From positions 1 to 64,000 of IMG/VR virus record IMGVR_UViG_3300046715_000123: a stretch of DNA of 64,000 nt, one strand, 5' to 3'. This DNA is from a virus. Made by a program: the position numbers and the translations under genes. Positions 26,320-47,145 of the stretch are shown piece after piece. The notes beneath the pieces are model-generated. The model saw only the letters and a program-made list of their open reading frames with translations. It was not told where the DNA came from and searched no databases. Numbering within the stretch: position 1 is the first letter of the stretch; every line of letters begins with the position of its first letter.

Positions 26320-26332
26320 GGAGGGCTTCCTC

Positions 26333-26920: not shown

Positions 26921-26976
26921 GGTGAAGTGGCCCTCCAGGGGCAGAAATGGCCGCCTCCAGGGCAGCCAGGGTTTGG

Positions 26977-27756
26977 TCAGTTCGAGCCCGGCAGCGGATT
27001 GCTGTCGTGCTCGGCGAGCGCCCGCCTGAACAAGCGAAGCTGATCGCCAGAGTGGCCCTGCGCGAACTCGCGGTAGATGCGCTCCCACTCACGTGCATGC
27101 GAAGACAGCTCGAACCGCTGCCCCTTGAACACCGGGATCACGCCGCAATGACAGCCGTCGTGCGCCCGGAAATCCGCCGTGTCCTGCTTGTACACCGCCC
27201 CGCGGGCCGCGAGCAGCTTGCAGAATGCGCACGCCCCCCGCGCCGCTGAGCGCGCCCACGCGGTGGCCTGCTTGTCCTGCCGCACCGCCTCCTGGACAGT
27301 GCCACGGCCCGTGTCGGTGACCAATTTCTGCGCCACCTGCTCGGCCTTCGTCTCCGCCTGCGCCAGCCGCACTTCCAGCGCCTGGCGCTGCGCTTCCGTC
27401 GTCGCCGGATCCTCCGGATCCCGCGGCCACAAGTCCTTCGTCGCCCACCGCAACGACGCCTCCGTCTGCTCCGACGGGGGCGGATCCGTGACCGGCACCG
27501 TGAACACGCCGGTCACGCCAGCCGCCTCGCGCTGCGCGTCGTAGAAGTCCGCCGCCAAGGATGCCGACGTGCGCGCGTACTGGTCGACGACCGCGTTCAT
27601 CGCCGCCAGCCAATCCGGCACCGACTCCCGCAACCGCTGCGGCAGGATCAACCGGCGAAGACCGCGCACATCCCGCACCAGCAGCCGCGTGAGGCCAATC
27701 TGCGCGGCCCGATACCGGCTGGCGGCATCGCCGCTATCCGAGACCGTTGCCGCCAC
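26977..27756 (-). CDS. MuF-like minor capsid / capsid maturation protein (259 aa)
   Basis: A GTG start at 27756 overlaps the portal 3' end by 23 bases. Helical N-terminal part, then GACAFCKLLAARGAVYKQD and DFRAHDGCHCGVIPVFKG, the Cys/His cluster of the MuF domain found after portal genes. It is a minor head protein probably ejected with or attached to the DNA. Confidence 0.85.
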   Translation of the reverse strand: MAATVSDSGDAASRYRAAQIGLTRLLVRDVRGLRRLILPQRLRESVPDWLAAMNAVVDQYARTSASLAADFYDAQREAAGVTGVFTVPVTDPPPSEQTEASLRWATKDLWPRDPEDPATTEAQRQALEVRLAQAETKAEQVAQKLVTDTGRGTVQEAVRQDKQATAWARSAARGACAFCKLLAARGAVYKQDTADFRAHDGCHCGVIPVFKGQRFELSSHAREWERIYREFAQGHSGDQLRLFRRALAEHDSNPLPGSN

Positions 27757-29167
27757 CGGTCACCTCCGCCGCAGCGGGAAGCTGGCCATTCTGGTCGCCG
27801 AGTGCGGCAAGACGCTGCATGAGCTGGCCACTCGCGGCCTGCCCCGCGCTGCGCCGCCTCTCGGCCGCCACCCGGCGCCGCTGGTCCTCGGTGAGCCCGG
27901 CCATCTCCAGTACGACATCGCCATCAGCCGGCAGGATCCCGGCGGAGACCATCTTCACAGCGGCGTCCGTCTGGGCTGCGATCGTCGGCGTCGCCGGATT
28001 CCGCCACACCGCCTCGATGCGGCGGGACTTGTCCGGCGGCTCCCCGTCCCGCACCCACAGCGCGAGACGCATAGCGTCCCGGTGCGTAGCGCTGAACCGG
28101 CGGATCCGCCGCTCGGCCTTCTTCACCAGCATCCCCTCGGAGCTACGGATCGCGTCCGCGCTCGCCGGGTTGTCGCTGGTGTAGCCGAGCATGTGCGGCG
28201 GCAGCCCAAGCTGCGTCGCCATGATCCGCGCATACAGGTCGATGATCTTTGTCTGTCCGGACGGGTCGTGAGCCGTGAACGCGCCCACGGTCGGCACGTT
28301 GCCGTCCTCGTCCCGCTCCAGAGCAAGAACGCGGCCGATGTACGTGTCCCACGCCGACTTGGCATTGCCCTCCGCGTCCTGGAACGCCGACTCGGACGCG
28401 CCGAGAATGTAGCGCTGCGGTGCACCGAAGAACTCCGCCGCCACCTCGATACCCATCAGCCGGCGACAAGCCGCATCCGTGATCGACATGACCTCGGGCG
28501 TGATCTCCGACTTCCCGATCCGGTCCGCCGTTCGCTGCCGGTTCGCCATCCGCAGGACCGGCACCATGCCCAGATTGTGCTGGTCCCGGGCAAAGACCTC
28601 CCAGCCGCCATCCACCTCGGCGGCGAGGATCGTCTGATCCGGCAGGTACAGCGTCGCGATCCGCACGCCGTCCTCCACCGACTCCCGTAGGGCCGCCGTC
28701 GCCATCCGAAGCCGCGCATCCCAGAACATCGTCATATCCAGCGGCGACTCAAACGTGATCAGCGGCGGATCGCCCGCCTCGCCCGACCCGACCGCCACGT
28801 ACTCGCGGCCATAGGTGAGGGCGTCCAGATGCGCCAAGCTCGCCTCGTCGAACAGATCGTTGGACTCGGCGATCTCCTCAAGGTCCGACGCGTCCGACCC
28901 GTCAGCCCAACGGAACGCCTCCAAGTCGAGACGCTGCTCCAGAGCCTCCACACCGATCCTCGGCCAGCCAATCACCGTGTGGAGCGTCTTCAACTGCGGC
29001 GGGATGCTAATTCCGAGATCTCGGATCAGCTGCTCGCCGTCGAAGTAGCTGTCGAGCAGCTCCAACTTGAAGCGGTGACTCAGCAGATCCGAGCGCAGCC
29101 CCGTCAGCAGCTGCTGCTCGTCATCCGACAGCGACAGCAGCGGCAGCTCAGGAATCGTGGCAGTCAT
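27734..29167 (-). CDS. portal protein (477 aa)
   Basis: The ATG at 29167 overlaps the terminase stop by four bases. LDSYFDGEQLIRDLGISIPPQLKTL and GWPRIGVEALEQRLDLEAF at the N-terminus, and IDLYARIMATQLGLPPHMLGY near residue 340, are typical of SPP1-gp6/HK97-type actinophage portals. It forms the ring through which DNA enters the head. Confidence 0.92.
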   Translation of the reverse strand: MTATIPELPLLSLSDDEQQLLTGLRSDLLSHRFKLELLDSYFDGEQLIRDLGISIPPQLKTLHTVIGWPRIGVEALEQRLDLEAFRWADGSDASDLEEIAESNDLFDEASLAHLDALTYGREYVAVGSGEAGDPPLITFESPLDMTMFWDARLRMATAALRESVEDGVRIATLYLPDQTILAAEVDGGWEVFARDQHNLGMVPVLRMANRQRTADRIGKSEITPEVMSITDAACRRLMGIEVAAEFFGAPQRYILGASESAFQDAEGNAKSAWDTYIGRVLALERDEDGNVPTVGAFTAHDPSGQTKIIDLYARIMATQLGLPPHMLGYTSDNPASADAIRSSEGMLVKKAERRIRRFSATHRDAMRLALWVRDGEPPDKSRRIEAVWRNPATPTIAAQTDAAVKMVSAGILPADGDVVLEMAGLTEDQRRRVAAERRRSAGQAASGQLMQRLAALGDQNGQLPAAAEVTGGGNGLG

Positions 29168-30894
29168 CGAAGCACCACCACCCGTCCCTTGCCGCGCGCC
29201 GTCGAGCGCTTCACCCACGCCGGAGAGTTCATGACCATGCGCCGCAGCATCCGCGCCCCGATCGCACACACAGCGAGGTCGACCTTTCGGGCCGACTCCC
29301 GATGTTCCTTACCGATCGTGTAGCCCCACGCATTCGTGCGGCGCCTCGCGTTCGCCACATGCCGGCGCAACTCCTTGCCCCCGTCGTGCGTGAGCTGCCG
29401 CTCCAGCACATCCCGGTAGAAGCGATCCACAGCCTCCGTGAACGCCTGCTGACGCCGCCGGTCACGCATGTCCCACATCACCGCGTGCTGGCTGTGACCC
29501 GAGACGACAGCCTTCAGCTTCAGGCGCTTCCCGTACCGCTGCCCCCACGCGTCGATGAACCCGTCCCAGTACCGCTCACCATCCGCGTCGTCCTGGCCGG
29601 CGCCCGGGTCCGCGAAGAACGCCAGCGGCTTGAACCGGGCGAACGTCTGCTCCACCACGCCGTCGACCTCCTCGCGCGGCACCCGCCACGGACGGCCATC
29701 AGGCCAGCCCGCAGGCCGCTGCCACACACCCAGCGTCTCCAGATGCCCGTCCGACAGGCGGCACGCCACCAGGCCCGTAGCATCGTCCGACTTGGAGCCG
29801 TCGAAGAATAGGACGATCTCGTCGCCGTCGACCAGGTCGATGCCCTCGTGCGGGCACGCATCCCACTCATACGGAGCGAGGAACGCGTCCTCTGCCGCGA
29901 CGATCTGGTTGAACCAGAACCGGCGGCTACGGCTCGGCGGGTTACGAACGTCGAGGATCGACGCCTTCAACCGCTCGATGTCCAGCCACGTCGAATCCCC
30001 GCGGACCGCCCGCAGCGTCGGCTCGATCCACTCCTCGGACAGCTTCGCCTCGGCCGGAGCCTCCAGGCTGTCGTAGAACAAGCCCACGTCAGCCACGCGT
30101 CCCGACTCCGCCGACTCGAAGGCCTCGCGGGTTCGCTCCGCCACCGAGTCCTCGCCGGGCTCGTAGGCGTTCGTGTTCGCCAACGTCCGCGACTGGCCGT
30201 CGGCGCTCTTGGTCGCGTTGCGCTCGATGACCGCGGCCATCTCGTGACCCTGGTTCGACTCCAACCAGTGGTGCGTCTCCCCCAGGTTCACGGCCGTCGG
30301 ACGGCCGCCCTCGAGCGCACGCGGCGAACTCGTGACTGCTTCCATCCGGGCACGGCCCTTGTCGGCATAGATGATCTCCTTGCCGAGGTCGATCCGGTAC
30401 TCCTCGATCGCCCGCTTCGACAAGATGCTCGGGAACAGCGTCATCGTGTTCCGCGTCTGATCCTGCGACACCGCCGCGATCTGCACCCACGCCGCCGGAT
30501 GCTGCACCCCGAGCGGCTGACCGGCCGGGACGCCCCACTCGTTGCCCTCATCCGCGACCCCACCGAACCGGCACGGACCGACGAACTCGAACGCCGACCA
30601 GGTAGCGATAAGCGGGTCCTTGCCCCAGCCCTTCAGCCGCTGGATCACGCCGTCACGCCACAAGAACCGGTTCGTCGCCGGATCCATCGCGTACCACCAC
30701 AGCGTCAGACGCGCCTGCTCTGCCGTGTACCGCCAGGGCGCCCCCGCGTAGTGCTGCAGATAGGTCGCTGACCAGGCCAGCGCATGCCAGCCAAGCGTGT
30801 AGTCCGGCAAGACGAACCGCCCGTCCGGGCCGCGCTTCCACGTCGGGCCGATCGTGAACGGCGTGACGACCTCGGGGACTTCCCCCTCAGCCAC
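29164..30894 (-). CDS. terL: terminase large subunit (576 aa)
   Basis: A GTG start at 30894 overlaps the small-subunit gene. The ATPase part shows a Walker A-like loop RLKGWGKDPLIAT and a Walker B region AVNLGETHHW. The nuclease part shows FFDGSKSDDATG and FFADPGAGQDDAD, acidic metal-binding clusters of the RNase H-like fold. It cuts and packages phage DNA into procapsids through the portal. Confidence 0.94.
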   Translation of the reverse strand: MAEGEVPEVVTPFTIGPTWKRGPDGRFVLPDYTLGWHALAWSATYLQHYAGAPWRYTAEQARLTLWWYAMDPATNRFLWRDGVIQRLKGWGKDPLIATWSAFEFVGPCRFGGVADEGNEWGVPAGQPLGVQHPAAWVQIAAVSQDQTRNTMTLFPSILSKRAIEEYRIDLGKEIIYADKGRARMEAVTSSPRALEGGRPTAVNLGETHHWLESNQGHEMAAVIERNATKSADGQSRTLANTNAYEPGEDSVAERTREAFESAESGRVADVGLFYDSLEAPAEAKLSEEWIEPTLRAVRGDSTWLDIERLKASILDVRNPPSRSRRFWFNQIVAAEDAFLAPYEWDACPHEGIDLVDGDEIVLFFDGSKSDDATGLVACRLSDGHLETLGVWQRPAGWPDGRPWRVPREEVDGVVEQTFARFKPLAFFADPGAGQDDADGERYWDGFIDAWGQRYGKRLKLKAVVSGHSQHAVMWDMRDRRRQQAFTEAVDRFYRDVLERQLTHDGGKELRRHVANARRRTNAWGYTIGKEHRESARKVDLAVCAIGARMLRRMVMNSPAWVKRSTARGKGRVVVLR

Positions 30895-31324
30895 CGATGC
30901 GGGACTGGTAGTCGGCGATCGCCGTCACAGACGCCGGCGTCTGCTTCACGGCCGGCTTCCGCTCCAGCTCCATGCGGGCCCGGCGCCGGTCGCCCTCCGT
31001 CGTCAGCAGGGACGACATCGCAGAGTTCAGGGCAGCGACGTACTGGCCGTTCGGCGCCCGGTCCGTCGACAGGCCACGCGACATCAACTCCGCCACGTAC
31101 CGGGCAACCGCCCAGTCCGACGGCTCATAGAACGCGGCCTGGCCAGACTCACGCAGAGACACGTACCAGTCCGCGGCAATCGGATGCCACAGCGCATCCG
31201 GCTCCGGCAGATCCGGCAGCTCATCCGGCGCCCCCGCAGGGGCCTGGATCAGGTCCGGGCCGTCGTCCTTGTTGGTGCGACGGCGCTCCTCGCTGCGCTT
31301 CGGTATGGGTCCACGAGTGCCCAT
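30887..31324 (-). CDS. terS: terminase small subunit (145 aa)
   Basis: The ATG at 31324 has GGAGG six bases upstream. MGTRGPIPKRSEERRR and the helical body (WYVSLRESGQAAFYEPSDWAVARYVAEL) are the usual form of Streptomyces phage P27-type small terminases. It recognises the packaging site, which may lie in the 420-base gap just upstream. Confidence 0.85.
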   Translation of the reverse strand: MGTRGPIPKRSEERRRTNKDDGPDLIQAPAGAPDELPDLPEPDALWHPIAADWYVSLRESGQAAFYEPSDWAVARYVAELMSRGLSTDRAPNGQYVAALNSAMSSLLTTEGDRRRARMELERKPAVKQTPASVTAIADYQSRIGG

Positions 31325-31994: not shown

Positions 31995-32031
31995 CGTGAT
32001 CACCCTTCCTGCGGCGCGGGCTGCGGTACGT

Positions 32032-37603: not shown

Positions 37604-37825
37604 ATGGCGCTTCGTTTCGCGGTGCAGGCAGACACGGAGCAGGAGTGCGCGGCCGGCCTGCGCCTGCTGGAGTCGCTGGGCCTGCAGACGGCGATGCTGC
37701 CGAAGCTGCTCACCGATGACCGGTGGATGGCCCGCGCCGTACCAGGCAAGACGAAGGCCCCGCCCGGAAGATCCGGTGCGGGGCCTGACGGGACGTCGGC
37801 CGTCATCCCCCCTGGACGTCGGTAA
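37604..37825 (+). CDS. possible small leaderless protein (73 aa)
   Basis: A plus-strand ORF starts MALRFAVQADTEQECAAGLRLL and contains LTDDRWMARAVP, which read like real protein. There is no RBS. The frame runs through a hairpin (37755-37786) and overlaps the convergent gene at 37803, so the true C-terminus is uncertain. The gap 37459-37603 contains TTGACA at 37514 but no convincing -10. Confidence 0.4.
   Translation: MALRFAVQADTEQECAAGLRLLESLGLQTAMLPKLLTDDRWMARAVPGKTKAPPGRSGAGPDGTSAVIPPGRR
37755..37786 (-). terminator. terminator of transfer-type operon
   Basis: AGGCCCCGC (37755-37763) pairs with GCGGGGCCT (37778-37786), with CCGG/CCGG nested inside. It lies 17 bases after the stop of the membrane-anchored protein at 37803. 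Confidence 0.75.
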
Positions 37826-38342
37826 TCTCCACGGACACCTTCGTGCCCGACGACGCGGTGCTGATCATCGACTCGGAGTAGTTGAGGCTCGTCCGGTCCG
37901 TCAGCTCGGCCGTCTCGATTACCGGCCCGGATTCGTCGCCCCGGATCTCGTAGGTGATCTCGTACACGGCGTCCGGGTCGATGCTCTCGGTGTCGCCGAG
38001 GTAGGTCAGGTCCGGTTCGACTGTCACGTTGCAGCCCGCCGATCCGAAGCACTGACGGCTGGTGGTGCGCAGCTTGATCTCAAAGCTGTAAGCGTCGATC
38101 TCGTCGAACGCCGGCTCCGGGTCCGGCACTGCTGTGGTCGCTTCGTTCTCGGCCGGGGCGCTCGAGGTCGTAGCGGCCGGCTTGCTGTCGTCGCCTCCGG
38201 CCTGCACGACGACGATTCCGGTGGCAATGACCGCGGCGATGATGGCGGCAGCAGACCCGATGATGATCGCATTGGCGCGTGACTTCTTCGGGTCGGGCGC
38301 GGGCGGCGGTACGTCGGGCATGGGTGGGATGAGGTCGGCCAT
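37803..38342 (-). CDS. exported membrane-anchored protein (179 aa)
   Basis: Residues 1-22 are cytoplasmic and Pro-rich, 23-48 form one transmembrane helix (ANAIIIGSAAAIIAAVIATGIVVV), then an acidic linker and an external domain with two cysteines (SRQCFGSAGCNVTVEP). The stop-start gap to the upstream MmpS-like gene is one base, so they are expressed together. The topology suits a surface protein of the donor or lysogen, for example entry exclusion. No family is recognised. Confidence 0.7.
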   Translation of the reverse strand: MADLIPPMPDVPPPAPDPKKSRANAIIIGSAAAIIAAVIATGIVVVQAGGDDSKPAATTSSAPAENEATTAVPDPEPAFDEIDAYSFEIKLRTTSRQCFGSAGCNVTVEPDLTYLGDTESIDPDAVYEITYEIRGDESGPVIETAELTDRTSLNYSESMISTASSGTKVSVEITDVQGG

Positions 38343-38343
38343 G

Positions 38344-38982
38344 TCAGTTCCATCCCCCGAAGAGTCCGGAGCTGAGCTGCGCGTCGCAGATGTTGTACCC
38401 GCCGGACGCGTGGCCCTTCTTCGTCTTTCCGTCGACGGTGACGGAGCAGTTGATTTCTCCGGAGCCCTGCAACTGGGCGGTCACCGTGTAGTACATGGCG
38501 TCGTCGTTCAGGGGCAGGGTGGCCTCGAACTTGCCGTTGGAGAACTTGCCGTCGCGGTTGTCCGAGTCGGAGCCGTAGGTGATGTCGAGGGGTCCGAGTG
38601 CGCCAGCGGGGGCGGTGCCCCACACCTTGAAGGTGACGACCTTCGGCTTCGGCTTCGGCTTCGGCTTGGCGGCCGGCTTGTCGTCGGCCTTCTTCTTGCC
38701 GTTGTTGGTGGCGCTGCCCGTGGGCTTGTCGCTGGTTTCGGGTGCGGTGACGTTGACGTCGCTGGATCCGCCGGCCTGGTCGTCGTTGCTGCTGCCGCTT
38801 CCGGCGATGGCGCCGCCGATGGCGATGACGACTATCAGGGCGAGGACGCCGAGGCAGCCGAGGCCAACGATCTTTCCGGTGCTGGGCTTCTTCGGCGGCT
38901 GCGGCTGGAACGGCGGCTGGCCGTAGGGCTGCTGGGGTCCGCCCCATCCGGGCTGGGGCTGCTGCGGGTACTGGTTGCTCAT
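38344..38982 (-). CDS. MmpS-like membrane-anchored protein (212 aa)
   Basis: The ATG at 38982 is preceded by AGGGGGG. A Pro/Gln/Gly-rich cytoplasmic tail (about 1-33) is followed by a transmembrane helix (IVGLGCLGVLALIVVIAIGGAI), a linker with (Lys-Pro)n near residue 115, and an external domain. In that domain GPLDITYGSDS...AQLQGSGEINCSVTVDGK and GGYNICDA resemble the MmpS fold. In other actinobacteria MmpS proteins assist transport; here a cell-surface or exclusion role is a guess from its place among transfer genes. Confidence 0.7.
   Translation of the reverse strand: MSNQYPQQPQPGWGGPQQPYGQPPFQPQPPKKPSTGKIVGLGCLGVLALIVVIAIGGAIAGSGSSNDDQAGGSSDVNVTAPETSDKPTGSATNNGKKKADDKPAAKPKPKPKPKVVTFKVWGTAPAGALGPLDITYGSDSDNRDGKFSNGKFEATLPLNDDAMYYTVTAQLQGSGEINCSVTVDGKTKKGHASGGYNICDAQLSSGLFGGWN
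38642..38668. repeat. TTCGGC tandem repeat coding for Lys-Pro
   Basis: Four copies of the hexamer TTCGGC plus a partial one encode the (KP)n linker of the MmpS-like protein. It could vary in length by slippage. Confidence 0.7.
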
Positions 38983-39073
38983 GATCCCCCCTGGGGTTCG
39001 TGCTGTACGAGTAAAGGACTGGTGAAGGAACCGTGCGGTTGCACGTTTCGTGAGGTGATTTCGGCCGCGAAGA

Positions 39074-39097
39074 GCCCCGGCCGGCGGAGGCCGGGGC
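39074..39097 (-). terminator. stem-loop
   Basis: GCCCCGGCC (39074-39082) pairs with GGCCGGGGC (39089-39097) with a 6-base loop, 31 bases after the stop at 39128. It separates the two-TM protein from the MmpS-like gene. Confidence 0.8.
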
Positions 39098-39127
39098 CAC
39101 GGCGTGCGACGAGTCAGACGGCTCCTC

Positions 39128-39604
39128 CTACTGCTGGTTGATGTTCTTGGCCCACACGCTGCGGGTGTTGGTGTGGGTCTCCCGGTGGTCCTGGTAGACG
39201 GGGCCGGTGTAGTGGTGGTGGATCTCCGGCTCCGGCTTGGCGCGCTTCGCGAGGCGGGCGAGGGCGAGCACGAGGGCGGTCGGCGCGCCGAACACGAGAC
39301 CGCACACGACCGGGTCGGCGTACTGCGACGCGTACATGAGGACGGCCGCACTGAGGCTGACCATGGAGACGGCGCCTCCCCCGGCCAGCATGAGCACGCT
39401 CGCATCGGTCGCGCCCTGACTCATCGGCGGCCGGCCCGGCTGGGCTATGGGCGGGGCGCTGCCGATGACGGCCTTGGGACTCGTGTCGTGCCGCCGGGCC
39501 TTGTCGATGGCATTGTCGACGGCGGCCTGAATGACCGCGTCGGTGAGCGAGTTGGCCTGCCCAGCCTGGGGGGCGGTGGGCGTCGGCTCGGGCAGAACGG
39601 TCAT
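39128..39604 (-). CDS. two-span membrane protein of Spd type (158 aa)
   Basis: Two hydrophobic segments (SVLMLAGGGAVSMVSLSAAVLMY and PVVCGLVFGAPTALVLALA) are followed by a conserved-looking tail EIHHHYTGPVYQDHRE...VWAKNINQ. That tail is a pattern I associate with small proteins in transfer regions of Streptomyces plasmids and integrative elements. It is probably involved in spread of the element through the mycelium. The family assignment is by pattern only. Confidence 0.6.
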   Translation of the reverse strand: MTVLPEPTPTAPQAGQANSLTDAVIQAAVDNAIDKARRHDTSPKAVIGSAPPIAQPGRPPMSQGATDASVLMLAGGGAVSMVSLSAAVLMYASQYADPVVCGLVFGAPTALVLALARLAKRAKPEPEIHHHYTGPVYQDHRETHTNTRSVWAKNINQQ

Positions 39605-39625
39605 GGCGGATGGTTCTCCTTCGGG

Positions 39626-39967
39626 TCAGCGGTACTTGCGGGCGGCGGAGTCGGCGCGACGGACCTTCGCCTTGGCGTCGTTGCGGGCACGGCGGGCGGC
39701 AGCCTTCTCCGGGCCCTTCGCCATGCGCAGCGCGTGCTCGGCCTTGGCGAGTTCGTTCTCTGCGCTCTCGAGCGCGCCGAGCGCGATGCCGGCACTGCGG
39801 GCGTACCGCTCCTCAGCCTTCTGGTCGAGGCGGTCGATACGGTTCTCGATACGGGCGTCGACAGCATGCTCACTGCCGCGCTGCGCGGCCTGACGGCCGC
39901 CCTTGACGATGAGCCGGGCACGCTCGAAACGCTCACCGGCCGTGTACTGACGCGGGTAGTCGGACAT
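39626..39967 (-). CDS. coiled-coil protein of transfer operon (113 aa)
   Basis: The ATG at 39967 has AAGGAG with good spacing. A basic N-terminus (YTAGERFERARLIVKGGRQAAQRG) is followed by an Ala/Glu/Arg coiled coil over residues 35-110. It is placed between the translocase and the two-span protein. It may be a structural partner of the transfer machinery. Confidence 0.6.
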   Translation of the reverse strand: MSDYPRQYTAGERFERARLIVKGGRQAAQRGSEHAVDARIENRIDRLDQKAEERYARSAGIALGALESAENELAKAEHALRMAKGPEKAAARRARNDAKAKVRRADSAARKYR

Positions 39968-40014
39968 GCGGTTCTCCTTGTCTGGGTGGGGTTCCACGGG
40001 CGGGTGCTGCACCC

Positions 40015-40159
40015 CCTCTACCGGCGCTACTTCGCAGGTCAGGGGCCTCTACCGGGGGTGCTACCGGGGTAAAGGGGCCCCGCTACTTTCGGGCCCCCGG
40101 TAGAGGGGTGTTGATGTTGGTCGGGTAGCGGGGTCGGTAGAGCCGGGGGGCTCTACCGG
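40015..40159. repeat. CTCTACCGG repeat cluster, candidate clt/translocase recognition site
   Basis: Copies of C(C/T)CTACCGG or its complement occur at 40015-40024, 40046-40055, 40060-40067 (GCTACCGG), 40097-40106 (reverse), 40122-40129 (weak, reverse), 40135-40143 (reverse) and 40150-40159. The cluster begins one base after the translocase stop and fills the gap to the next gene. In Streptomyces plasmids such as pSVH1 the clt locus, with short repeats bound by TraB, lies just downstream of traB, so the position matches. The motif itself differs from the published one. Confidence 0.65.
40135..40158 (-). terminator. hairpin formed by two inverted CTACCG copies
   Basis: CGGTAGAGCC (40135-40144) pairs with GGCTCTACCG (40149-40158) across a GGGG loop, immediately after the translocase stop. 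It may end the mRNA, serve as a binding site, or both. Confidence 0.65.
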
Positions 40160-42259
40160 TCATGCCGCGGCGAGGTCGTTGAGGAGCTCGACGGGCACGG
40201 CGTCCTCGATGTCGCGACGCTGGTAGCCAGCCCGGTTCTCGCCGTTGATCTTCACTTGCTTGCTGGAGCGGCGGACGCCGGCCTTTTCCAGTTCGGCGGC
40301 GAGTTTCTCGGCGTCCCAGTCGCCGTAGGTGTCCTCGTCGATGCGGACGAGCGCGGCGAGCAGGTCGGTGGTGAACATGCGCACCGAGTGGCGCATCGCT
40401 TCGAGGACGTCGGAGATGACCTCGGGCACGGTGTACCCCTGCTCGGCTGCCGATGAGGTGACGTCGCCGAGCGCGTCGCCGGACAGCTGACCTGCGGCTT
40501 TCCGCAGGTCACGGCCCTTTGAGCAGATCTGCACGAACGCCGGCCCGTCGAGGTAGTCGGCCTTGACGGTGACGAACGAGGCCGGGCCGGTGACCAGGAC
40601 ACCGACACCCATGTGATCCTCGGACAGCACCGAGGCGTCGGCGCCCTGCGAGGCCTTGCCCTTGCCCAGCACCATGTCTGAGCTGGTCTGGTCGACGACC
40701 TGCGTCGAGTACCTGATGGTGATGATCTCGCGGAGCTTCGTCGGGACGCTGTCGGCGTCGGGGCGCTGGCTGGCGAAGTTGGAGATGAACCCGGCCGCCG
40801 GGCCGCGGCGGGCGATGCGGCACAGGTCGTTGATGACCTGATCCTTTTCGTCCTTCTCCATCGCCGTCAGGTACTCCTGCAGCTCGTCGATGGTGACGAA
40901 GATGAACGGCAGCTTGTACTTGACCTGCAGTTCCTTCGTCAGCTTGCCCTGCGGGCACAGCGAGGTGGGCAGGCTGCGGAAGAGGGCGAAGCGGCGTTCC
41001 ATCTCCGCGAGGAGCTCCTTGAGCATGGCCTTCAGGGCGTCAATGGCGTCATCCTCGGCGCCCATGACCATGCGGTGGGCGACCGCCCGCATCGGCATCC
41101 AGTCGGCGCCGCCCTTGCCGTCGGCGACGTAGTGCCGCACCCACGGGTCGAGGATTCCCGCAGCTGAGAGCAGCCGCTGGCTGAACGTCTTGCCGCGGCG
41201 GGGCAGTCCGCCGAAGAACATCGACTGCCAGATGATGGGCAGGGTGATCCGGTTCCCGCGGGCCTCGTGACCGAACGGGATCGGGTCCCACACGTCGAAC
41301 TTTTCGGCTTTGACCAGCGGCGATACCACCGGCTCGGCCAGGTACGGGTCGTCGTCGGCAACCCACATGGAGACGCGGCCGGCGTGTCCGCCCTTGGCGG
41401 CGCGGACGCGGGACATGATGACCTGGATCTCGTCGACGCCGAGCTCGGCGGCGATCGAGGTGCGCTTGGCGAGGACGTCGGCTGCGGTCTTGCCGCCGCC
41501 GCGGGGCAGGTCGAACAGCACTGACCAGCCGTTTCCGTCACGGAGGGGCCCCATGATGCAGTTGACCTTGGGCCCTTCGTCGTCGCCCTTGCCCTGCTTG
41601 AGGAGACCGACTGCGCGCAGGGAGTCGTTGAGCTGCTGCGCGTCCATGGCGATCCGCAGGGGCGGCGTGCCGTGGTCGAGGATCTGCGCCTCGTCGGACC
41701 AGCCGATCGCGGTCAGGCCTGCGCAGACCATGCAGCCGACGGCGAGTTGGAGGCCGAGGCTGGCGAAGGAGAGGGCGACCGCGCCGGCACCGAAGAACAG
41801 GGCTGCGGTTCCCCAGCGCCACCTGCGGGCTTCGGTGCGGGCCCGGTGGGCGATCTGGTAGCGAAGGGCGAGGTCGACGTCCTCGGGCTTGGCCTTGGAC
41901 TGGGCGCGCAGTGCTTTGACGGTCCGGGTGTGGTCCTGAGCTGCGAGAACGGGCCACAGCTTGCGGCTGCCGCGGAACGCGCCGCGCGTCGAATACCCGG
42001 CGATCTTGACGGCGTACTTGGGGCTGCGGATGCCGTGGTAGCGGGCGTGCCACCAGCCGACCTTCCACAGGGCGGCGTGATTGGCCTTGACGGACGCCCA
42101 GTTGCGAGCCCACGCGGGCAGGACGGGGGTATCGGGGACGGTGAGCCAGTCGGCGAGCGCGTTGTCGGCCCGGTCGACGGCCTCGACGACTTCCTCGGCC
42201 GCTGCGATGACGGCCTCGTCGTTCTTGGTGATGCTGATCGGTTCGGTCGTGGTGGTCAT
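40160..42259 (-). CDS. FtsK/SpoIIIE-TraB-type DNA translocase (699 aa)
   Basis: The ATG at 42259 has GGGGAG upstream. Residues about 140-185 form two membrane helices (WGTAALFFGAGAVALSFASL, QLAVGCMVCAGLTAIGW). The motor domain shows a Walker A FFGGLPRRGKTFSQ near residue 352 and a Walker B PFIFVTIDELQEYL. The C-terminal 70 residues (YGDWDAEKLAAELEKAGVRRSS...AGYQRRDIED) look like a winged helix that could read DNA repeats. Actinomycete plasmids transfer double-stranded DNA with one such protein. In a phage it could alternatively aid DNA segregation or injection. Confidence 0.88.
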   Translation of the reverse strand: MTTTTEPISITKNDEAVIAAAEEVVEAVDRADNALADWLTVPDTPVLPAWARNWASVKANHAALWKVGWWHARYHGIRSPKYAVKIAGYSTRGAFRGSRKLWPVLAAQDHTRTVKALRAQSKAKPEDVDLALRYQIAHRARTEARRWRWGTAALFFGAGAVALSFASLGLQLAVGCMVCAGLTAIGWSDEAQILDHGTPPLRIAMDAQQLNDSLRAVGLLKQGKGDDEGPKVNCIMGPLRDGNGWSVLFDLPRGGGKTAADVLAKRTSIAAELGVDEIQVIMSRVRAAKGGHAGRVSMWVADDDPYLAEPVVSPLVKAEKFDVWDPIPFGHEARGNRITLPIIWQSMFFGGLPRRGKTFSQRLLSAAGILDPWVRHYVADGKGGADWMPMRAVAHRMVMGAEDDAIDALKAMLKELLAEMERRFALFRSLPTSLCPQGKLTKELQVKYKLPFIFVTIDELQEYLTAMEKDEKDQVINDLCRIARRGPAAGFISNFASQRPDADSVPTKLREIITIRYSTQVVDQTSSDMVLGKGKASQGADASVLSEDHMGVGVLVTGPASFVTVKADYLDGPAFVQICSKGRDLRKAAGQLSGDALGDVTSSAAEQGYTVPEVISDVLEAMRHSVRMFTTDLLAALVRIDEDTYGDWDAEKLAAELEKAGVRRSSKQVKINGENRAGYQRRDIEDAVPVELLNDLAAA

Positions 42260-42262
42260 GGG

Positions 42263-43288
42263 TCAGCTCCCCGGGAGTGCGCGGACGTTGTCGGAGCCGA
42301 GTCCGGCGAGCTTGGGCTCGTCTTTCTCGATGGCGTCTCGGACGCGCTGGCAGGTGGCGCGGGAGACGGTCTTTTCGGCGAGCCGTGCGGCGACGAGCGC
42401 GTCACGGATCTCGGTCCATTCGGGTCGCTGGCCGAGCTCGTCGTAGAGGGCGCGGACGCGCTCACGGCGGCGGTCGGTTACGGAGGTGGGCGCGCTCTTC
42501 TTCGGCTTCGTCTGAGCGCGCTCACGGCGCTCACGAACGGGCTTGGCGGGGCGCTCAGGTGCGCGCTCATTCGGGCGCTCAGTGGCGGGCTCCTGAGCGC
42601 GCTCACCGGCGCTCGCTGTGAGCGCCTTCCGCTCCTCCTGCGGGCGCTCACTGACGCGCTCAACTTCGACGCTCACGGGCGCCTCGCGACGCTCATCACG
42701 TCGCCGCCCCCGGCGCTCCTTGGCGGCTTTCGGTGGGGCGGTCATGAGGTGGACGCGCCACAGGATGAGGGAGGCGACGGAGGCGACCATGGCGATCAGC
42801 CACCACGTCGGCTTGGCGGTCGGGGTGAGCCCGAACAGGCGGGCGTCGGCAAGGTGGTAGGCGACGTTCGCCGTGATCGTCAGGGTGATCGCCTGCACGA
42901 TGTCGCGGTGCCGCCGGAAGGCCTGGATGACGTACACGTCGATGACGAACGGCAGCAGCCAGGCCACTGTGGCGTCGAAGCCGACCATGCGGGCGAGCGC
43001 GTACTCGCCGGACGCGGTGAGGCCGACGGTGCCGGCGATGATGGCGCGGGCCGCCCACGTGTCGAGGTTGTCGTCGCGCTGCTGCCGCACCTCCGCCTCG
43101 GCACGGGCCGCGGTACGGATGCGGTCAGCCTCCGATCGGGCGTCGGCGACGATCCGCTCCGCCTTGACGCCAGACTCGGCGTGCATTTTGTTGGCCTGGG
43201 CGAGGAGGGCTTCGGCTTCGGCGCGCGCCGCGACCGTCCGCTCGTCGCGGATCGGGAGCGGCTGGAAGGCACCCGGGTCGATGCTCAC
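42263..43288 (-). CDS. DUF2637 membrane protein, SpdB-like (341 aa)
   Basis: A GTG at 43288 overlaps the upstream stop (GTGA) and has GGAGG. The N-terminus is a coiled coil (AEALLAQANKMHAESGVKAERIVADARSEAD, around 25-60). Four membrane spans (about 90-205) make up the DUF2637 domain. A long Glu-Arg-rich region (SERPQEERK, ERPNERAPERPA, RERRERAQ) follows, and a winged-helix-like C-terminus (VRALYDELGQRPEWTEIRDAL). DUF2637 proteins are the SpdB family of Streptomyces conjugative elements and are often next to the translocase, as here. Confidence 0.85.
   Translation of the reverse strand: MSIDPGAFQPLPIRDERTVAARAEAEALLAQANKMHAESGVKAERIVADARSEADRIRTAARAEAEVRQQRDDNLDTWAARAIIAGTVGLTASGEYALARMVGFDATVAWLLPFVIDVYVIQAFRRHRDIVQAITLTITANVAYHLADARLFGLTPTAKPTWWLIAMVASVASLILWRVHLMTAPPKAAKERRGRRRDERREAPVSVEVERVSERPQEERKALTASAGERAQEPATERPNERAPERPAKPVRERRERAQTKPKKSAPTSVTDRRRERVRALYDELGQRPEWTEIRDALVAARLAEKTVSRATCQRVRDAIEKDEPKLAGLGSDNVRALPGS
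42455..42700. repeat. GCGCTCA/TGAGCGC repeats inside the SpdB-like gene
   Basis: More than ten copies of GCGCTC(A) or its complement occur in about 245 bases, including two TGAGCGCGCTCA palindromes (42513-42524 and 42595-42606). They encode the Glu-Arg-rich region, so protein-level repetition explains at least part of the pattern. Confidence 0.6.
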
Positions 43289-43494
43289 GCGATCCTCCGG
43301 TTGCGGTACAGGTGCACGCCGAGCCAGGCGGCAAGCAGGAGTTGGACGGCGGTCTGGGCGAGGAGCACGGCAGCACCGTGCAGGACGAGCCCGAACACGG
43401 CCCACAGCAGCGAGCCGAGCGCGTCGGCGACCGACGGGCAGACGCCGACGAGGATGAGGAAGCCTGCGATGAGCAGGCCGAGGAGCACACGCAT
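43285..43494 (-). CDS. small two-span membrane protein, Spd-like (69 aa)
   Basis: MRVLLGLLIAGFLILVGVCPSV and LLWAVFGLVLHGAAVLLAQTAVQLLLAAWLGVHLY give two or three membrane segments and leave almost no soluble part. It overlaps the SpdB-like gene by four bases, as SpdC/SpdD-type proteins do in other elements. Probably an inner-membrane component of the spreading apparatus. Confidence 0.7.
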   Translation of the reverse strand: MRVLLGLLIAGFLILVGVCPSVADALGSLLWAVFGLVLHGAAVLLAQTAVQLLLAAWLGVHLYRNRRIA

Positions 43495-43551
43495 CGCGGG
43501 CTCTCCCTTCGATGGGGCGGTCAGTGGGTTGGTGCTGCGCCGGTTCTCCTT

Positions 43552-43575
43552 GGCGCCCGGTGGGGGACGGGCGCC
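43552..43575 (-). terminator. stem-loop
   Basis: GGCGCCCG (43552-43559) pairs with CGGGCGCC (43568-43575) across an 8-base loop, in the gap after the 76-residue gene. It may balance expression of the transfer genes below. Confidence 0.65.
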
Positions 43576-43606
43576 GCGGGCAGCCGGTCAGCGGCGCCCG
43601 GCTTGG

Positions 43607-43837
43607 TCAGCGGACGCGTCGGATGGTGGACGTGACTCGTCCGCCTTTCAGGTGCGGCAAGCGGCTGATGATCGCGCCGATGACTTCCTTCTCGATCTCC
43701 TTGGCCGTGAAGTTGCGGCTTCGGGTGGAGACCACGTCCTTGTACTCGGCGAACTCCCCCCTCTTTTCGATGCGGACGTGCGCATGCCAGGTGCTGCCCA
43801 TGGCGCTGTTGTTGGTCTTGCGGCTGAACAGGCCCAT
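43607..43837 (-). CDS. small transfer-region protein (76 aa)
   Basis: The ATG at 43837 has AGAGGAG upstream. The product (MGLFSRKTNNSAMGSTWHAHV, RIEKRGEFAEYKDVVSTRSR, FTAKEIEKEVIGAIISRLPHL) looks like a small alpha/beta protein with a basic surface. Similar short ORFs lie upstream of spd genes in Streptomyces elements. Function unknown. Confidence 0.6.
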   Translation of the reverse strand: MGLFSRKTNNSAMGSTWHAHVRIEKRGEFAEYKDVVSTRSRNFTAKEIEKEVIGAIISRLPHLKGGRVTSTIRRVR

Positions 43838-43884
43838 GTCGTCGGGCTCCTCTCGGGTTGTGGGTTGGGTTGGTGCGTCTGGTG

Positions 43885-43931
43885 GCCGTGACGGCGAGTC
43901 CGCGGGGGTGTGGATTCCTCGCCGCCACGGC
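43885..43931 (-). terminator. imperfect stem-loop
   Basis: GCCGTG (43885-43890) pairs with CACGGC (43926-43931), and CGGCGAG (43892-43898) pairs with CTCGCCG (43918-43924), with one mismatch between them. It lies in the gap between two small transfer-region genes. Confidence 0.6.
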
Positions 43932-43942
43932 GGCTCTTGGGG

Positions 43943-44137
43943 CTAAGCGACGTCGTCGAGGACGGGCGGCTCGCCGGGGTTGCGCAGGTCGTACTCGGCG
44001 GCGAGGCGCTTGATGCGCCGCATGGCGATCTCGTCGCCCGAGTCGAGAGCGATCTCGTAGCTGGTCTGCAGGTCGAGACGGGCACGCTGCGCGGCCTCGT
44101 AGACGTCCAGAGCGTCGGCAATCAGGTACAGCGGCAT
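43943..44137 (-). CDS. small helical protein (64 aa)
   Basis: The product MPLYLIADALDVYEAAQRARLDLQ...AMRRIKRLAAEYDLRNPGE is almost entirely helical and acidic. It has an ordinary RBS (GAGGAA, 10 bases) and lies between two hairpins. No family is recognised; it is part of the operon leading into the transfer genes. Confidence 0.55.
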   Translation of the reverse strand: MPLYLIADALDVYEAAQRARLDLQTSYEIALDSGDEIAMRRIKRLAAEYDLRNPGEPPVLDDVA

Positions 44138-44178
44138 GGAAGTGGTTCCTCACTGGTCAGGTGGGACGGGTTGGGGGT

Positions 44179-44222
44179 GGCCGCGGGGCGTGACGGGGGG
44201 GTTGTCGGATCGCCCCGCGGCC
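44179..44222 (-). terminator. strong stem-loop
   Basis: GGCCGCGGGGCG (44179-44190) pairs perfectly with CGCCCCGCGGCC (44211-44222) over a 20-base loop, just after the 25-codon ORF. Confidence 0.75.
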
Positions 44223-44233
44223 GGTCTAGGGGG

Positions 44234-44311
44234 TTACTTCGGGCGGGACTCGGACCGCTTGTTGACGGTGGCGAGCTTCCGATGCAGGGCGTCACGCTCG
44301 GCATCAGTCAC
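44234..44311 (-). CDS. possible 25-residue peptide
   Basis: A GTG at 44311 overlaps the stop of the upstream gene (GTGA), the same coupling used elsewhere in this genome. The product MTDAERDALHRKLATVNKRS... is a single charged helix. It is too short to judge by codon use alone. Confidence 0.4.
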   Translation of the reverse strand: MTDAERDALHRKLATVNKRSESRPK

Positions 44312-44556
44312 GACTGCTCACCCCACGCCCGGTAGCCGGTGGGCGGGTGCTCGGCGAGCCGCTCCCGCAGGTAGTCGGTGTCCCACTCGATGCCGGGCGG
44401 GCGTTCCTCCAGTGCGCCACGGAGAGCGATCTTCGCGTGCGTGACGCGCTCGAGCAGGATCCGGTCGTGGACCTCGCCGTCGCCGACCGTGGCCGGCGCC
44501 GGGATGTCGAGGGCTTCCAGGACGGCCTGCAGCAGCTCGCGCTCGGCCGTGGTCAC
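44308..44556 (-). CDS. small helical protein (82 aa)
   Basis: A GTG at 44556 overlaps the upstream stop. The product has TTAERELLQAVLEALDIPAPA and DRILLERVTHAKIALRGALEER, two amphipathic helices, then a Trp/Tyr-containing tail (YRAWGEQS). This pattern is common among small Streptomyces phage proteins. Function unknown. Confidence 0.6.
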   Translation of the reverse strand: MTTAERELLQAVLEALDIPAPATVGDGEVHDRILLERVTHAKIALRGALEERPPGIEWDTDYLRERLAEHPPTGYRAWGEQS

Positions 44557-44795
44557 GACGTGGCCTCGACGATCACGAGGAACGTGTCCGACGCGAGGTC
44601 CATGACGACGTGGGCGGGGATGCCCTCACGGCGACGGTCGGCCGCGTACTCCTCCGCCGGCCAGGAGCCGCGCGGGCCACCCGCCTGGAAGCGCTCCAGG
44701 ATCGTGCGCTGCGGGCGCGGGGCCGGCGGGGCGGTCCGGACGAAGGACGCGGCGGCGTGGGCGGCGGCGTCCAGAGCCTCGAGGGTCGTGCTCAC
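44553..44795 (-). CDS. small hypothetical protein (80 aa)
   Basis: A GTG at 44795 overlaps the upstream stop (GTGA). LEALDAAAHAAASFVRTAP is followed by a basic Pro-rich stretch and a C-terminal strand (AHVVMDLASDTFLVIVEATS). No motif. It is in a four-gene overlapping chain with 44792, 44308 and 44234. Confidence 0.6.
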   Translation of the reverse strand: MSTTLEALDAAAHAAASFVRTAPPAPRPQRTILERFQAGGPRGSWPAEEYAADRRREGIPAHVVMDLASDTFLVIVEATS

Positions 44796-45187
44796 CGTGT
44801 CACCGCCGCTTCCCGGATGACGCCCGCGTAGGTGGTGGCCTCCGCGATCATCCGATCGATGTGGCAGTCGACGTGGTCGCCGAGCTGGTCGGTGAGGATC
44901 CACTGCCCGGGCGTGTACGGGTCGACCTGGTCGGGGTCCGTCTCGGCGGGGGTGGGCAGGCGGAACGAGTCGACCGCGAACCGGAAATAGCCGTCGGGCT
45001 GCTCGGTGGCGACCGTCAGCACGGTGCCGGTACGGACCACCCGCAGGATGCGGGCGCCGGCCGGGGTGCCGATGGTGGCAAGCGCGCGGCGGGCGATGGA
45101 CTCCCGGAGCTGACTCATGCGAGCCGCCGACGAAACGGGGGCGGTCTCGGTGCGCACCAGCGCAGCCTTAAGATCTGTCGTAGCCAC
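44792..45187 (-). CDS. hypothetical protein, first gene of chain (131 aa)
   Basis: A GTG at 45187 has GAGGAG upstream. The product has an N-terminal helix (SSAARMSQLRESIARRALATIG), a beta segment (ARILRVVRTGTVLTVATEQ) and a Asp/Pro-rich middle (TPAETDPDQVDPYTPGQW). It is the first gene of the leftward transfer-type operon and faces the divergent RHH regulator; the promoter should lie in 45188-45383. Confidence 0.6.
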   Translation of the reverse strand: MATTDLKAALVRTETAPVSSAARMSQLRESIARRALATIGTPAGARILRVVRTGTVLTVATEQPDGYFRFAVDSFRLPTPAETDPDQVDPYTPGQWILTDQLGDHVDCHIDRMIAEATTYAGVIREAAVTR

Positions 45188-45318
45188 AGGGTCTCCTCGT
45201 TAGAACCTGGTGGTCAGGCCCTGGCCAGGGAGTGGAGTCCCTGAGCTGGGGCCGTCTTCGTTTGTGGGTGCTGGTGGAGCAGCACAGCTGTCCCATTCGG
45301 ACCGGTGGAGCGGCCCTG

Positions 45319-45371
45319 AGTGGCACTCCACTAAAGTAGCGCCATCCCTAGACCGTGGCAATCCACTGTGG
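45319..45371. promoter_or_regulatory. paired palindromes upstream of RHH gene
   Basis: AGTGG-CACT-CCACT (45319-45332) and CCAC-T-GTGG (45363-45371) lie in the divergent gap 13-65 bases before the RHH start. Further GTGGAGT-like copies occur at 45231-45238 and inside the gene. Ribbon-helix-helix proteins often bind such short repeats near their own promoter. Confidence 0.5.
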
Positions 45372-45383
45372 GATTCTTTCTTC

Positions 45384-45566
45384 ATGCCAGCCGGAATCCA
45401 CCTCAAGAGAGCCCGCACGTACCGCCCTGACCCGGAGCTGTACGAGCGCGCCCAAGATGCCGTGAAAGCGGTGGACTCCACCATGAACGACCACATCAAC
45501 GCGTTCCTGCGCTGGCTCGTGCGCGACACAGACGAGCTGCCGGAGCGGCCGGCCAAGCCGGAATGA
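45384..45566 (+). CDS. ribbon-helix-helix regulator (60 aa)
   Basis: The ATG at 45384 is used; upstream frame is noncoding. The core RTYRPDPELYERAQDAVKAVDSTM followed by NDHINAFLRWLVRDTDELP has the strand-helix-helix pattern of Arc/MetJ/CopG repressors. It diverges from the transfer-type operon and is followed by the NUDIX genes, so it is a likely operon-specific repressor (a Kor-type role). Confidence 0.75.
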   Translation: MPAGIHLKRARTYRPDPELYERAQDAVKAVDSTMNDHINAFLRWLVRDTDELPERPAKPE

Positions 45567-45593
45567 CCTCGGGCAGCGACCGGGGGAAACCTC

Positions 45594-45806
45594 ATGCCGT
45601 CCAGCCAACGCCTCGCGCGCGCACGGCAGAAGGACACTCCCCCGACACCGATCAGCCAGACGATCAGTAGCCAGACACCGCGGCGACACCAGGTCGCCGT
45701 CAGCACGCCAGACCCGAGCGCAACGAGCACGGGAGCCTCATTGTGGACGTCGTCGGCACATGGACCGGCCGATCAGCGTGCCTCCTCCAGGAGGCCATGC
45801 GGATGA
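45594..45806 (+). CDS. possible small protein between RHH and NUDIX genes (70 aa)
   Basis: An ATG at 45594 has GGGGGAAACC before it and its codons have mostly G/C third positions. The product is polar and lacks hydrophobic runs, and it overlaps the NUDIX gene by 64 bases. A competing 35-codon ORF (45563-45670) overlaps the RHH stop by ATGA. Only one, or neither, may be real. Confidence 0.3.
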   Translation: MPSSQRLARARQKDTPPTPISQTISSQTPRRHQVAVSTPDPSATSTGASLWTSSAHGPADQRASSRRPCG

Positions 45807-46381
45807 CGAACGAGGCGTTCGGTGAACGCCTCGGAATCTCCCCGCGCACCATCACCCGCTGGCACAGCGCCCCCGGGATGATCCACCGAACCGAGGTCCA
45901 GCAGATCCTCGACACGGCATACGAACAGGCGGGTGAGACGGTGCAGCGACGGTTCGCACTCCTGCTGCGCCCACCCGCCCCTCGCATGGAGGCGCAGGCC
46001 CTCAGGGTGGCGATAGCGGTCGTGGTGCGGGGCGATGACGTCCTGCTGGTGTGCCGGCGCGGGGATGGCGAGATCCGCTGGCAGTTCCCGGCCGGCATGG
46101 TCAAGCCGGGCTCCGACCCGTCGACGGTCGCCGTTCAGGAAACCCACGGGGAAACCGGGGTGCACTGCACGATCCGCGAGCAGTTGGGCGAGCGCGTCCA
46201 CCCGGTGACCGGTGTCGTCGCCTCGTACTACCTGGCCGATCACCTCGCCGGGGAGGCCGCGAACTTGGATCCGCTGGAGAACGTCGACGTCACCTGGGCG
46301 CCGCGCACTGCCCTCACCCGCTTCATCCCGCACGACCAGATCTACCCGCCCATCCTGAACGCCTTGGAGGCTGCCGCATGA
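45743..46381 (+). CDS. HTH-NUDIX fusion protein, Pif-like (212 aa)
   Basis: A GTG at 45743 has GGGAG eight bases before. Residues 18-45 (AMRMTNEAFGERLGISPRTITRWHSAPG) are an XRE-type helix-turn-helix, and residues 88-210 are a NUDIX domain. The NUDIX box (118-140, GMVKPGSDPSTVAVQETHG) has lost several key residues: the first Glu is Ser, the Arg is Gln and one catalytic Glu is Gly, so hydrolysis is doubtful. pSAM2 Pif, which blocks incoming transfer, has a Nudix motif, and this gene likewise adjoins transfer genes. Confidence 0.8.
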   Translation: MDVVGTWTGRSACLLQEAMRMTNEAFGERLGISPRTITRWHSAPGMIHRTEVQQILDTAYEQAGETVQRRFALLLRPPAPRMEAQALRVAIAVVVRGDDVLLVCRRGDGEIRWQFPAGMVKPGSDPSTVAVQETHGETGVHCTIREQLGERVHPVTGVVASYYLADHLAGEAANLDPLENVDVTWAPRTALTRFIPHDQIYPPILNALEAAA

Positions 46382-46788
46382 CCGAGACGACCACCGAGAA
46401 GCCCGGCATCTCCGCCGCGATCATCGTGTCCGAAGGGCGGGTGCTGATGGTCCGCCGCGCCGTGTCCGAGGGCGAGCTGATGTGGCAGTTCCCCGCTGGC
46501 GCAATCGAGGCCGACGAGGGCGCCGAGGACGCGGCAGTCCGGGAGACGCTCGAGGAAACTGCGCTGACCGTGAAGGCGGTGCGCCTGCTCGGCGAGCGCA
46601 TCCACCCGAAGACCGGCCGGGCGATGTCGTACACGGCGTGCGAGGTCGTCGACGGCGAGGCCCGGGTCGCGGACGACGACGAGCTGGACGCGGTCGCCTG
46701 GGTGGCGCACGGCGAGCTCGCCGAGTACGTGCCCTACGGCCTGTTCGGTCCGGTCCAGGAGTACCTCGACGGCGTGCTCCCTCACTGA
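46378..46788 (+). CDS. NUDIX hydrolase (136 aa)
   Basis: The ATG overlaps the stop of the HTH-NUDIX gene (ATGA). The NUDIX box (residues 41-63, GAIEADEGAEDAAVRETLEE) keeps the Gly, first Glu, Arg-Glu and Glu-Glu positions; only the final Gly is replaced. It should therefore bind metal and cut a nucleoside-diphosphate-linked substrate, which cannot be named. Paired with the degenerate HTH-NUDIX protein it may form a mixed regulatory complex. Confidence 0.88.
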   Translation: MTETTTEKPGISAAIIVSEGRVLMVRRAVSEGELMWQFPAGAIEADEGAEDAAVRETLEETALTVKAVRLLGERIHPKTGRAMSYTACEVVDGEARVADDDELDAVAWVAHGELAEYVPYGLFGPVQEYLDGVLPH

Positions 46789-46796
46789 AATGCGAA

Positions 46797-46822
46797 CGGC
46801 CCGGTGCGCTAACACCGGGCCG
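46797..46822 (+). terminator. terminator of NUDIX operon
   Basis: CGGCCCGGTG (46797-46806) pairs with CACCGGGCCG (46813-46822) across a 6-base loop, nine bases after the NUDIX stop. Confidence 0.85.
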
Positions 46823-46884
46823 ATTCAACCAGCGAGCGCTAACTCGCTGATCTTCAACCGTCACTCGCCAGAGAGAAGGTCTCG

Positions 46885-47145
46885 ATGAACACCTTACTGC
46901 TGAAGCCCGTCCCCGCGCCTGCGTCATCCGTCACGCCGGACCCGCTCCTCGACACCCCACTCCCCCAACTGCTGGCCGCGCACGGCGTCGAGCTCGTCGA
47001 CTCCCAGATCGCGGACCGCACGTTCTTCGGCGCGTTCGTTGAGCGCCGTGACGGCTCCCGGATCCTGGCGATGCCGTCCGGCCGGCCTGCGTTCGAGCGG
47101 GACACGGTGGCGCGGATGCTGCTCGCCGACGGCCTCGGCCTGTAG
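46885..47145 (+). CDS. small hypothetical protein (86 aa)
   Basis: The ATG at 46885 has AGAAGG about 5-10 bases before. The product (PDPLLDTPLPQLLAAHGVELVDSQ, TFFGAFVERRDGSRILAMPSG) is a small alpha/beta protein with a conserved-looking ERRDGSRIL strand. It has its own terminator and is the last rightward gene of this block. Function unknown. Confidence 0.65.
   Translation: MNTLLLKPVPAPASSVTPDPLLDTPLPQLLAAHGVELVDSQIADRTFFGAFVERRDGSRILAMPSGRPAFERDTVARMLLADGLGL

Follow-up and report, generated by a model that had tools for sequence, protein, structure and literature searches.

The stretch of DNA considered here – the window – comprises the first 64,000 nucleotides of the IMG/VR virus record IMGVR_UViG_3300046715_000123 (G000; 64,431 bp in full). 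Within a temperate phage it carries the gene for an FtsK/SpoIIIE-type double-stranded DNA translocase (traB), a set of small membrane-protein genes around it and, directly behind its stop codon, an array of short repeats. We read this block as a TraB/clt-type module for the transfer of double-stranded DNA, and put the probability of this reading at about 0.62.

The translocase consists of an N-terminal helical and transmembrane (TM) region, a motor and a C-terminal winged-helix region. The GxxxxGKT residues of its Walker A motif (GGLPRRGKT, residues ~350–358) and the DE of its Walker B motif (FVTIDE, ~454–459) are invariant in an alignment of 33 relatives. In an AlphaFold2 model (mean pLDDT 77, motor mostly 75–96), the winged helix appears as helices and strands at residues 613–698, a region that aligns with the C-terminus of pSVH1 TraB, and a Foldseek search with the model retrieved an FtsK motor on double-stranded DNA (5e-15) and the pCW3 conjugation protein TcpA (3e-14). 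Pfam also reports a match to DUF3631; as this covers only the C-terminal 75 aa of TraB, its reading as a replication initiator was rejected.

Searched by tblastn, the protein matched none of 50,697 phage records and matched 58 plasmids, including pSVH1 (TraB, 31.7% identity) and a circle from Streptomyces decoyicus (73%). By phmmer, pSVH1 TraB scores 164 bits against it; of the host FtsK-domain proteins, the main FtsK open reading frames give no match at 1e-3, and the highest score among the others is 37 bits. Because plasmid proteins match, phage records do not and host FtsK matches are absent or weak, the 699-aa translocase is, as far as sequence can tell, a member of the TraB family that groups with plasmid TraB and not with host FtsK. 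This upholds the TraB-type call of a preliminary description of the same DNA, which had itself set out that grouping with other translocases rather than TraB would count against it.

The repeat array, unannotated and missed in that description, occupies the 192-bp gap between traB and the next gene. Five of the six copies of CGGTAGAG in the window lie in this gap, the whole-window mean after shuffling being 1.35. No other gap of at least 100 bp in the window contains any 8-mer four or more times, and the same holds for the 300 bp behind each of the other genes (0 of 83). The averaged motif of the array is GGTAG[A/C]GG. In 69 close relatives, the 330 bp behind traB contain GGTAG 4.26 times on average, where 0.46 would be expected from these loci, and 67 of the 69 have at least two copies, although, being related, they are not independent events. 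The motif is still present behind 53–59%-identical TraBs of Nonomuraea, Parafrankia and Kibdelosporangium; the array has no counterpart behind four distant TraBs (36–39% identity).

A known docking site offers a direct comparison. The TraB recognition sequence (TRS) of pSVH1 has the consensus GACCCGGA (PMC5133688) and, used as a positive control, was recovered at positions 8158, 8180, 8212, 8233 and 8249 (reverse), with the traB stop at 8142. Since this site, too, directly follows the traB stop, the position of the G000 array matches that of a known site. Behind the traB genes of pFP3, pFP4, pZL12 and pIJ101, de novo 8-mers gave no strong array, with at most three copies, so the method misses some clt loci. 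Taken together, TraB and the repeats behind its gene very probably form a cognate pair.

Relatives of the large terminase (TerL) of G000 are encoded by 115 IMG/VR contigs, 80 of which were retained (67–92% identical). A TraB-like protein was found in 18 of 42 TerL-related records as a raw count; two were left out – G029, whose TraB belongs to an actinomycete integrative and conjugative element (AICE), and G040, with a 58-aa C-terminal match only – and the count used here is 16 siblings. In all 16, traB lies on the terminase strand, roughly 3–21 kb upstream of TerL, two of them requiring a circular contig. Because the sibling TraBs are only 25–36% identical to that of G000 while the TerL proteins are 67–92% identical, the transfer module has been swapped in place within the phage clade.

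The swapped genes bring their own repeats. Some 8-mer occurs at least four times behind traB in 8 of the 16 siblings (0.8% of random windows) and at least three times in 13 of them (8%), and the motifs differ by TraB subfamily: CCCGGTCG, CCCCGTCC, CCCTGTGC, AGCCTGGA and GGGCGTGA. As closely related TraBs share a motif, the independent evidence amounts to about five arrays. Several siblings also have DUF2637- or SpdB2-like neighbours of traB: G033 carries traB, an SpdB2-like gene (32% to pSVH1 SpdB2, 2e-12) and a full-length GntR gene; G047 carries traB, an SpdB2-like gene (29%, 4e-17) and a pair of NUDIX genes. At the sibling locus L234, a full-length GntR gene lies upstream of the tra genes.

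The excluded record G029 (L170) had been considered as a phage with a pSVH1-type TraB (84% to pSVH1 TraB) and TRS; this was rejected, as the surrounding 20 kb (L233, G029:1-20000) shows a neighbouring AICE-like element, with TraB and SpdB2 84–86% identical to those of pSVH1, the TRS GACCCGGA, and an xis-like gene and integrase of its own. The element's immediate neighbour is a prophage from the same TerL clade; two elements are joined in this viral contig.

Beyond the clade, the closest TraB (88%) is that of the 94.6-kb phage G001. This phage has head genes of its own and a TerL of only 34% identity, and it keeps a NUDIX pair (81–86%), an SpdB2-like gene (77% over 183 aa), traB and the repeats together. 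A relative of TerL, portal or capsid lies within 10 kb in 17 of 24 close viral contigs, versus four chromosomal loci; the remaining chromosomal loci with a close TraB look AICE-like. A tree of 85 TraBs contains at least 9–10 switches between phages and other elements that are forced by well-supported branches, a count lowered slightly by the assignment of its L170 row to an AICE. Because the tree needs these switches, the module has been exchanged repeatedly between phages and conjugative elements.

Three replicons with related genes deserve mention. The S. decoyicus 'plasmid' (L004, NZ_CP107886) resembles a tandem dimer of a 14.6-kb AICE-like circle with a close TraB, the same protein accessions occurring twice. 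Two small Streptomyces plasmids (L236, NZ_CP108470; L237, CP108844) have SpdB2-like genes 69–72% identical to that of G000 over the membrane part; one of the two, in which collagen-like and LamG genes are also present, may be a plasmid-phage not recognised as such.

Table 1. Features of the window that bear on the module and on the element carrying it.
Feature	Position	Strand	Basis or remark
Tyrosine integrase, phage type	2756..4093	+	PF14659
GntR DNA-binding domain only, 81 aa	5770..6015	+	PF00392 7.7e-16
Second tyrosine recombinase, XerC-like	7964..8962	-	PF00589/PF02899
Head module: capsid, VG15, portal, large and small terminase	25363..31324	-	Pfam/homology
Two-TM protein, transfer-associated	39128..39604	-	PHROG 19266; homologs in 40 plasmids and in siblings
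Basic 113-aa protein	39626..39967	-	homologs adjoin traB in L008 and several AICE-like loci
clt-like locus, CGGTAGAG x5, both orientations	39968..40159	.	directly after traB stop
traB, FtsK/SpoIIIE-type double-stranded DNA translocase, 699 aa	40160..42259	-	PF01580 1.2e-8; intact frame
SpdB2/DUF2637-like membrane protein, 341 aa	42263..43288	-	adjoins traB upstream; DUF2637 0.0051; two TM helices
Small two-TM protein	43285..43494	-	Spd-like by position and topology
Five small genes upstream of the SpdB2-like gene	43607..45187	-	without known family
RHH-like protein (by eye), 60 aa	45384..45566	+	divergent from tra operon; 57% homolog upstream of traB in L010
HTH and degenerate NUDIX protein	45743..46381	+	PF00293 1.4e-12
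NUDIX hydrolase, near-intact Nudix box	46378..46788	+	PF00293 1.1e-21
86-aa protein	46885..47145	+	conserved neighbour of the tra module (L008, L234, some AICE-like loci)

The genes around traB (Table 1) fit the picture to different degrees. For the gene adjoining it upstream, the DUF2637 score (17.2 bits) falls under the Pfam cut-off of 22.8; its C-terminus is 43–45% identical to plasmid DUF2637 proteins, BLASTP found no match to pSVH1 SpdB2 and hhalign a weak one to an SpdB2 profile. The DUF2637 (SpdB-like) gene of the preliminary description is thereby less certain than stated there, its position and topology being right and its profile match weak. Of the several Spd-like membrane proteins claimed there, only two have two predicted TM helices: the small one upstream (L234 and L235, two of the siblings, likewise have a small two-TM gene upstream of their SpdB2-like gene) and the one encoded at 39128-39604, whose homologs sit directly after traB in pZL12 (54%), pFP3 (51%) and pFP4 (50%). 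The two single-TM proteins of 37803-38982 were rejected as Spd proteins: that at 38344-38982 is MmpS-like (PF05423/Mycobact_memb, sub-threshold) and that at 37803-38342 has no Pfam match. Their homologs are present in few siblings, and they are possibly surface exclusion proteins. Of the five small upstream genes, that at 44308-44556 recurs in AICE-like loci, where its homologs likewise lie upstream of traB. The proposed ribbon–helix–helix (RHH) regulator keeps its resemblance by eye and has no Pfam match.

Three further genes had been drawn into the transfer system. Both proteins compared there with Pif, the transfer-immunity factor of pSAM2, are NUDIX proteins by PF00293 – the first, with its helix–turn–helix (HTH) region, does not match the Nudix-box pattern – and the pair occurs in 6 of 15 TraB-positive and 6 of 12 TraB-negative siblings. 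Because its presence is independent of TraB, the pair appears to belong to the phage clade and not to the transfer genes, and the Pif-type role was rejected. The KorSA-like gene does encode a GntR domain, a lone one of 81 aa that the circular map places ~23 kb away from the module.

The element itself is a complete temperate phage of Streptomyces-like bacteria, whose genes cover head, tail, lysis and an integrase. The portal is of the SPP1 type and the capsid of the HK97 type, a VG15-type protein, small and large terminase, an amidase, RecT and an exonuclease are present, and the tape measure protein is akin to those of other Streptomyces phages, in agreement with the full phage genome reported earlier. 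Also confirmed is the lack of ParA (none in a PF13614 search of G000) and of a plasmid-type replication initiator (no plasmid Rep among the genes scanned). Among recorded phages none is near-identical; the nearest sequenced TerL proteins come from isolated Streptomyces phages (47–50% identity). Because the first and last 174 bp of the record (window 1-174 and record 64258-64431) overlap, being 99.4% identical with one mismatch, and sit inside a leftward early operon, the map is most likely a circle of about 64,257 bp; IMG/VR classes the record as linear despite the overlap. A glycosyltransferase gene (24329-25306) adjoins the capsid gene and occurs near TerL in 63 of 80 TerL-related loci, and the stretch of about 1 kb from the small terminase to a methyltransferase-like gene (31325-32318), in which no gene is called, may contain a cos site or else small genes.

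What was observed – the genes and the family they belong to, the fold prediction, an array that is conserved, a constant locus within the clade and repeated exchange – leads us to infer binding, assembly and transfer as follows. TraB would bind CGGTAGAG (core GGTAG[A/C]GG) behind its own gene on the excised or replicating circle, would form a membrane ring with the neighbouring Spd-like membrane proteins and, through this ring, would pump intact phage double-stranded DNA across hyphal contacts and septa, with neither relaxase nor virion. Intercellular DNA transfer by the G000 module is probable, and G000 may pass between cells by mating in addition to its spread as virions.

Several points weigh against this reading. 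The gene upstream of traB is a weak SpdB2 candidate, recognised by its place, its two TM helices, a DUF2637 score under the threshold and the plasmid-like C-terminus; no full-length Kor/GntR regulator is adjacent to the tra operon of G000, in which respect the phage differs in regulation, not in transfer mechanism; many siblings have no detected TraB, and the module is for that reason not essential for the phage; and the first two CGGTAGAG copies, inverted relative to each other, make up a perfect hairpin immediately behind the traB stop that could be a terminator. Indeed, the gap folds better than shuffled sequences (z -3.4), as expected were the array a transcription terminator or a structured 3' RNA and the translocase active without clt, for instance in dimer resolution with the second recombinase. 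That the copies run in both orientations, that the motif is conserved across loci, that the pSVH1 TraB sites lie in the same place and that other TraB subfamilies carry other motifs there renders this account highly improbable.

The siblings without TraB, together with the frequent swaps of TraB between phages and other elements, would also suit a module taken as cargo from a conjugative element and now inactive or repurposed, for example for the exclusion of other elements. We regard this as distinctly doubtful, since the intact motor motifs and frame, the repeats kept by different TraBs and the constant locus in 16 siblings argue for selection. In the plasmids studied, one TraB serves both transfer and spreading; were the same TraB/clt machine to act within one mycelium only, spreading replicating or prophage DNA through septa or re-seeding emptied compartments, the restriction would need a reason. 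The genes beside traB are nevertheless Spd-like, and published work reports that Spd proteins join TraB in assemblies at septa and that spreading needs TraB (PMC5133688), so that this use of the module is unlikely without being far-fetched.

If intercellular transfer by TraB is correct, G000 and its siblings suggest that integrating temperate phages also combine virions with TraB transfer, using, at a fixed locus, interchangeable TraBs with matching repeats; many Streptomyces prophages would then be conjugative elements in disguise, perhaps able to carry chromosomal genes along. A wider and more tentative proposal extends double mobility to the entire clade of these integrating temperate Streptomyces phages – each with a cognate TraB/clt pair at a fixed locus, conjugating as a circle, mobilising flanking chromosome when integrated, and sharing docking repeats with AICEs for mutual mobilisation and module swaps. 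The CGGTAGAG array provides a concrete sequence for testing.

Virion genes and TraB on one element are already a known kind, represented by pFP3 and pFP4 (reportedly the work of Chen et al. 2012) and by pZL12 (reportedly Zhong et al. 2010). Like G000, pFP4 and pFP3 (NC_017833, NC_023067) join head and tail genes to DUF2637 and FtsK/SpoIIIE TraB genes, and pFP4 shows likeness in part of the tape measure (43%), the portal (27%) and the XerC-like recombinase (39%; 35% for pZL12). Both differ in having ParA, a replication module (DnaB, or primase with DUF927) and a full-length GntR, and their TraB is not detectably related to that of G000 by phmmer; G000, unlike them, has a phage-type integrase and RecT and no ParA. 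In pZL12 (NC_013420), phage genes are again found, the FtsK/SpoIIIE-like gp071 is followed by the same two-TM gene (54%) and GntR lies nearby; this 90-kb element differs by its ParA/ParB and by a different TraB, missed by tblastn with that of G000. Transfer of pZL12 requires tra and two adjacent genes (PMC3583192), and plasmid-phages are reported both to conjugate and to make infective particles (PMC4170104). Because at least 16 siblings have a TraB-like gene at the same locus and these plasmid-phages carry comparable genes, the earlier description of the near-complete set as unusual was too strong. A prophage survey of 2,406 actinobacterial genomes is silent in its main text on conjugation, FtsK and TraB (PMC10023795).

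With pSVH1, G000 shares a repeat array directly after the traB stop, a TraB about 32% identical and, if the weak SpdB2 assignment is right, an SpdB2 gene upstream of traB; pSVH1 differs in its repeat (GACCCGGA versus CGGTAGAG), in the C-terminal domain of TraB and in being a small Rep plasmid without virion genes. Streptomyces AICEs – the S. decoyicus circle and AICE-like chromosomal loci – have TraBs mostly 53–75% identical with the same GGTAG-type repeats behind them; no TerL, portal or capsid was found within 10 kb of an AICE traB, and with its full head module G000 is not an AICE, that is, an element with Int, Rep and Tra and no virion genes. For pSAM2 no clt motif has been described (PMC9513070), and repeats behind traB may also help with AICEs. 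With the plasmid-phage class G000 shares virion genes and a TraB module on one circle, here without ParA or plasmid Rep; what is new is this integrating form without ParA, its docking repeats, and the finding that swapped TraB/array pairs recur at a single locus in a clade of phages.

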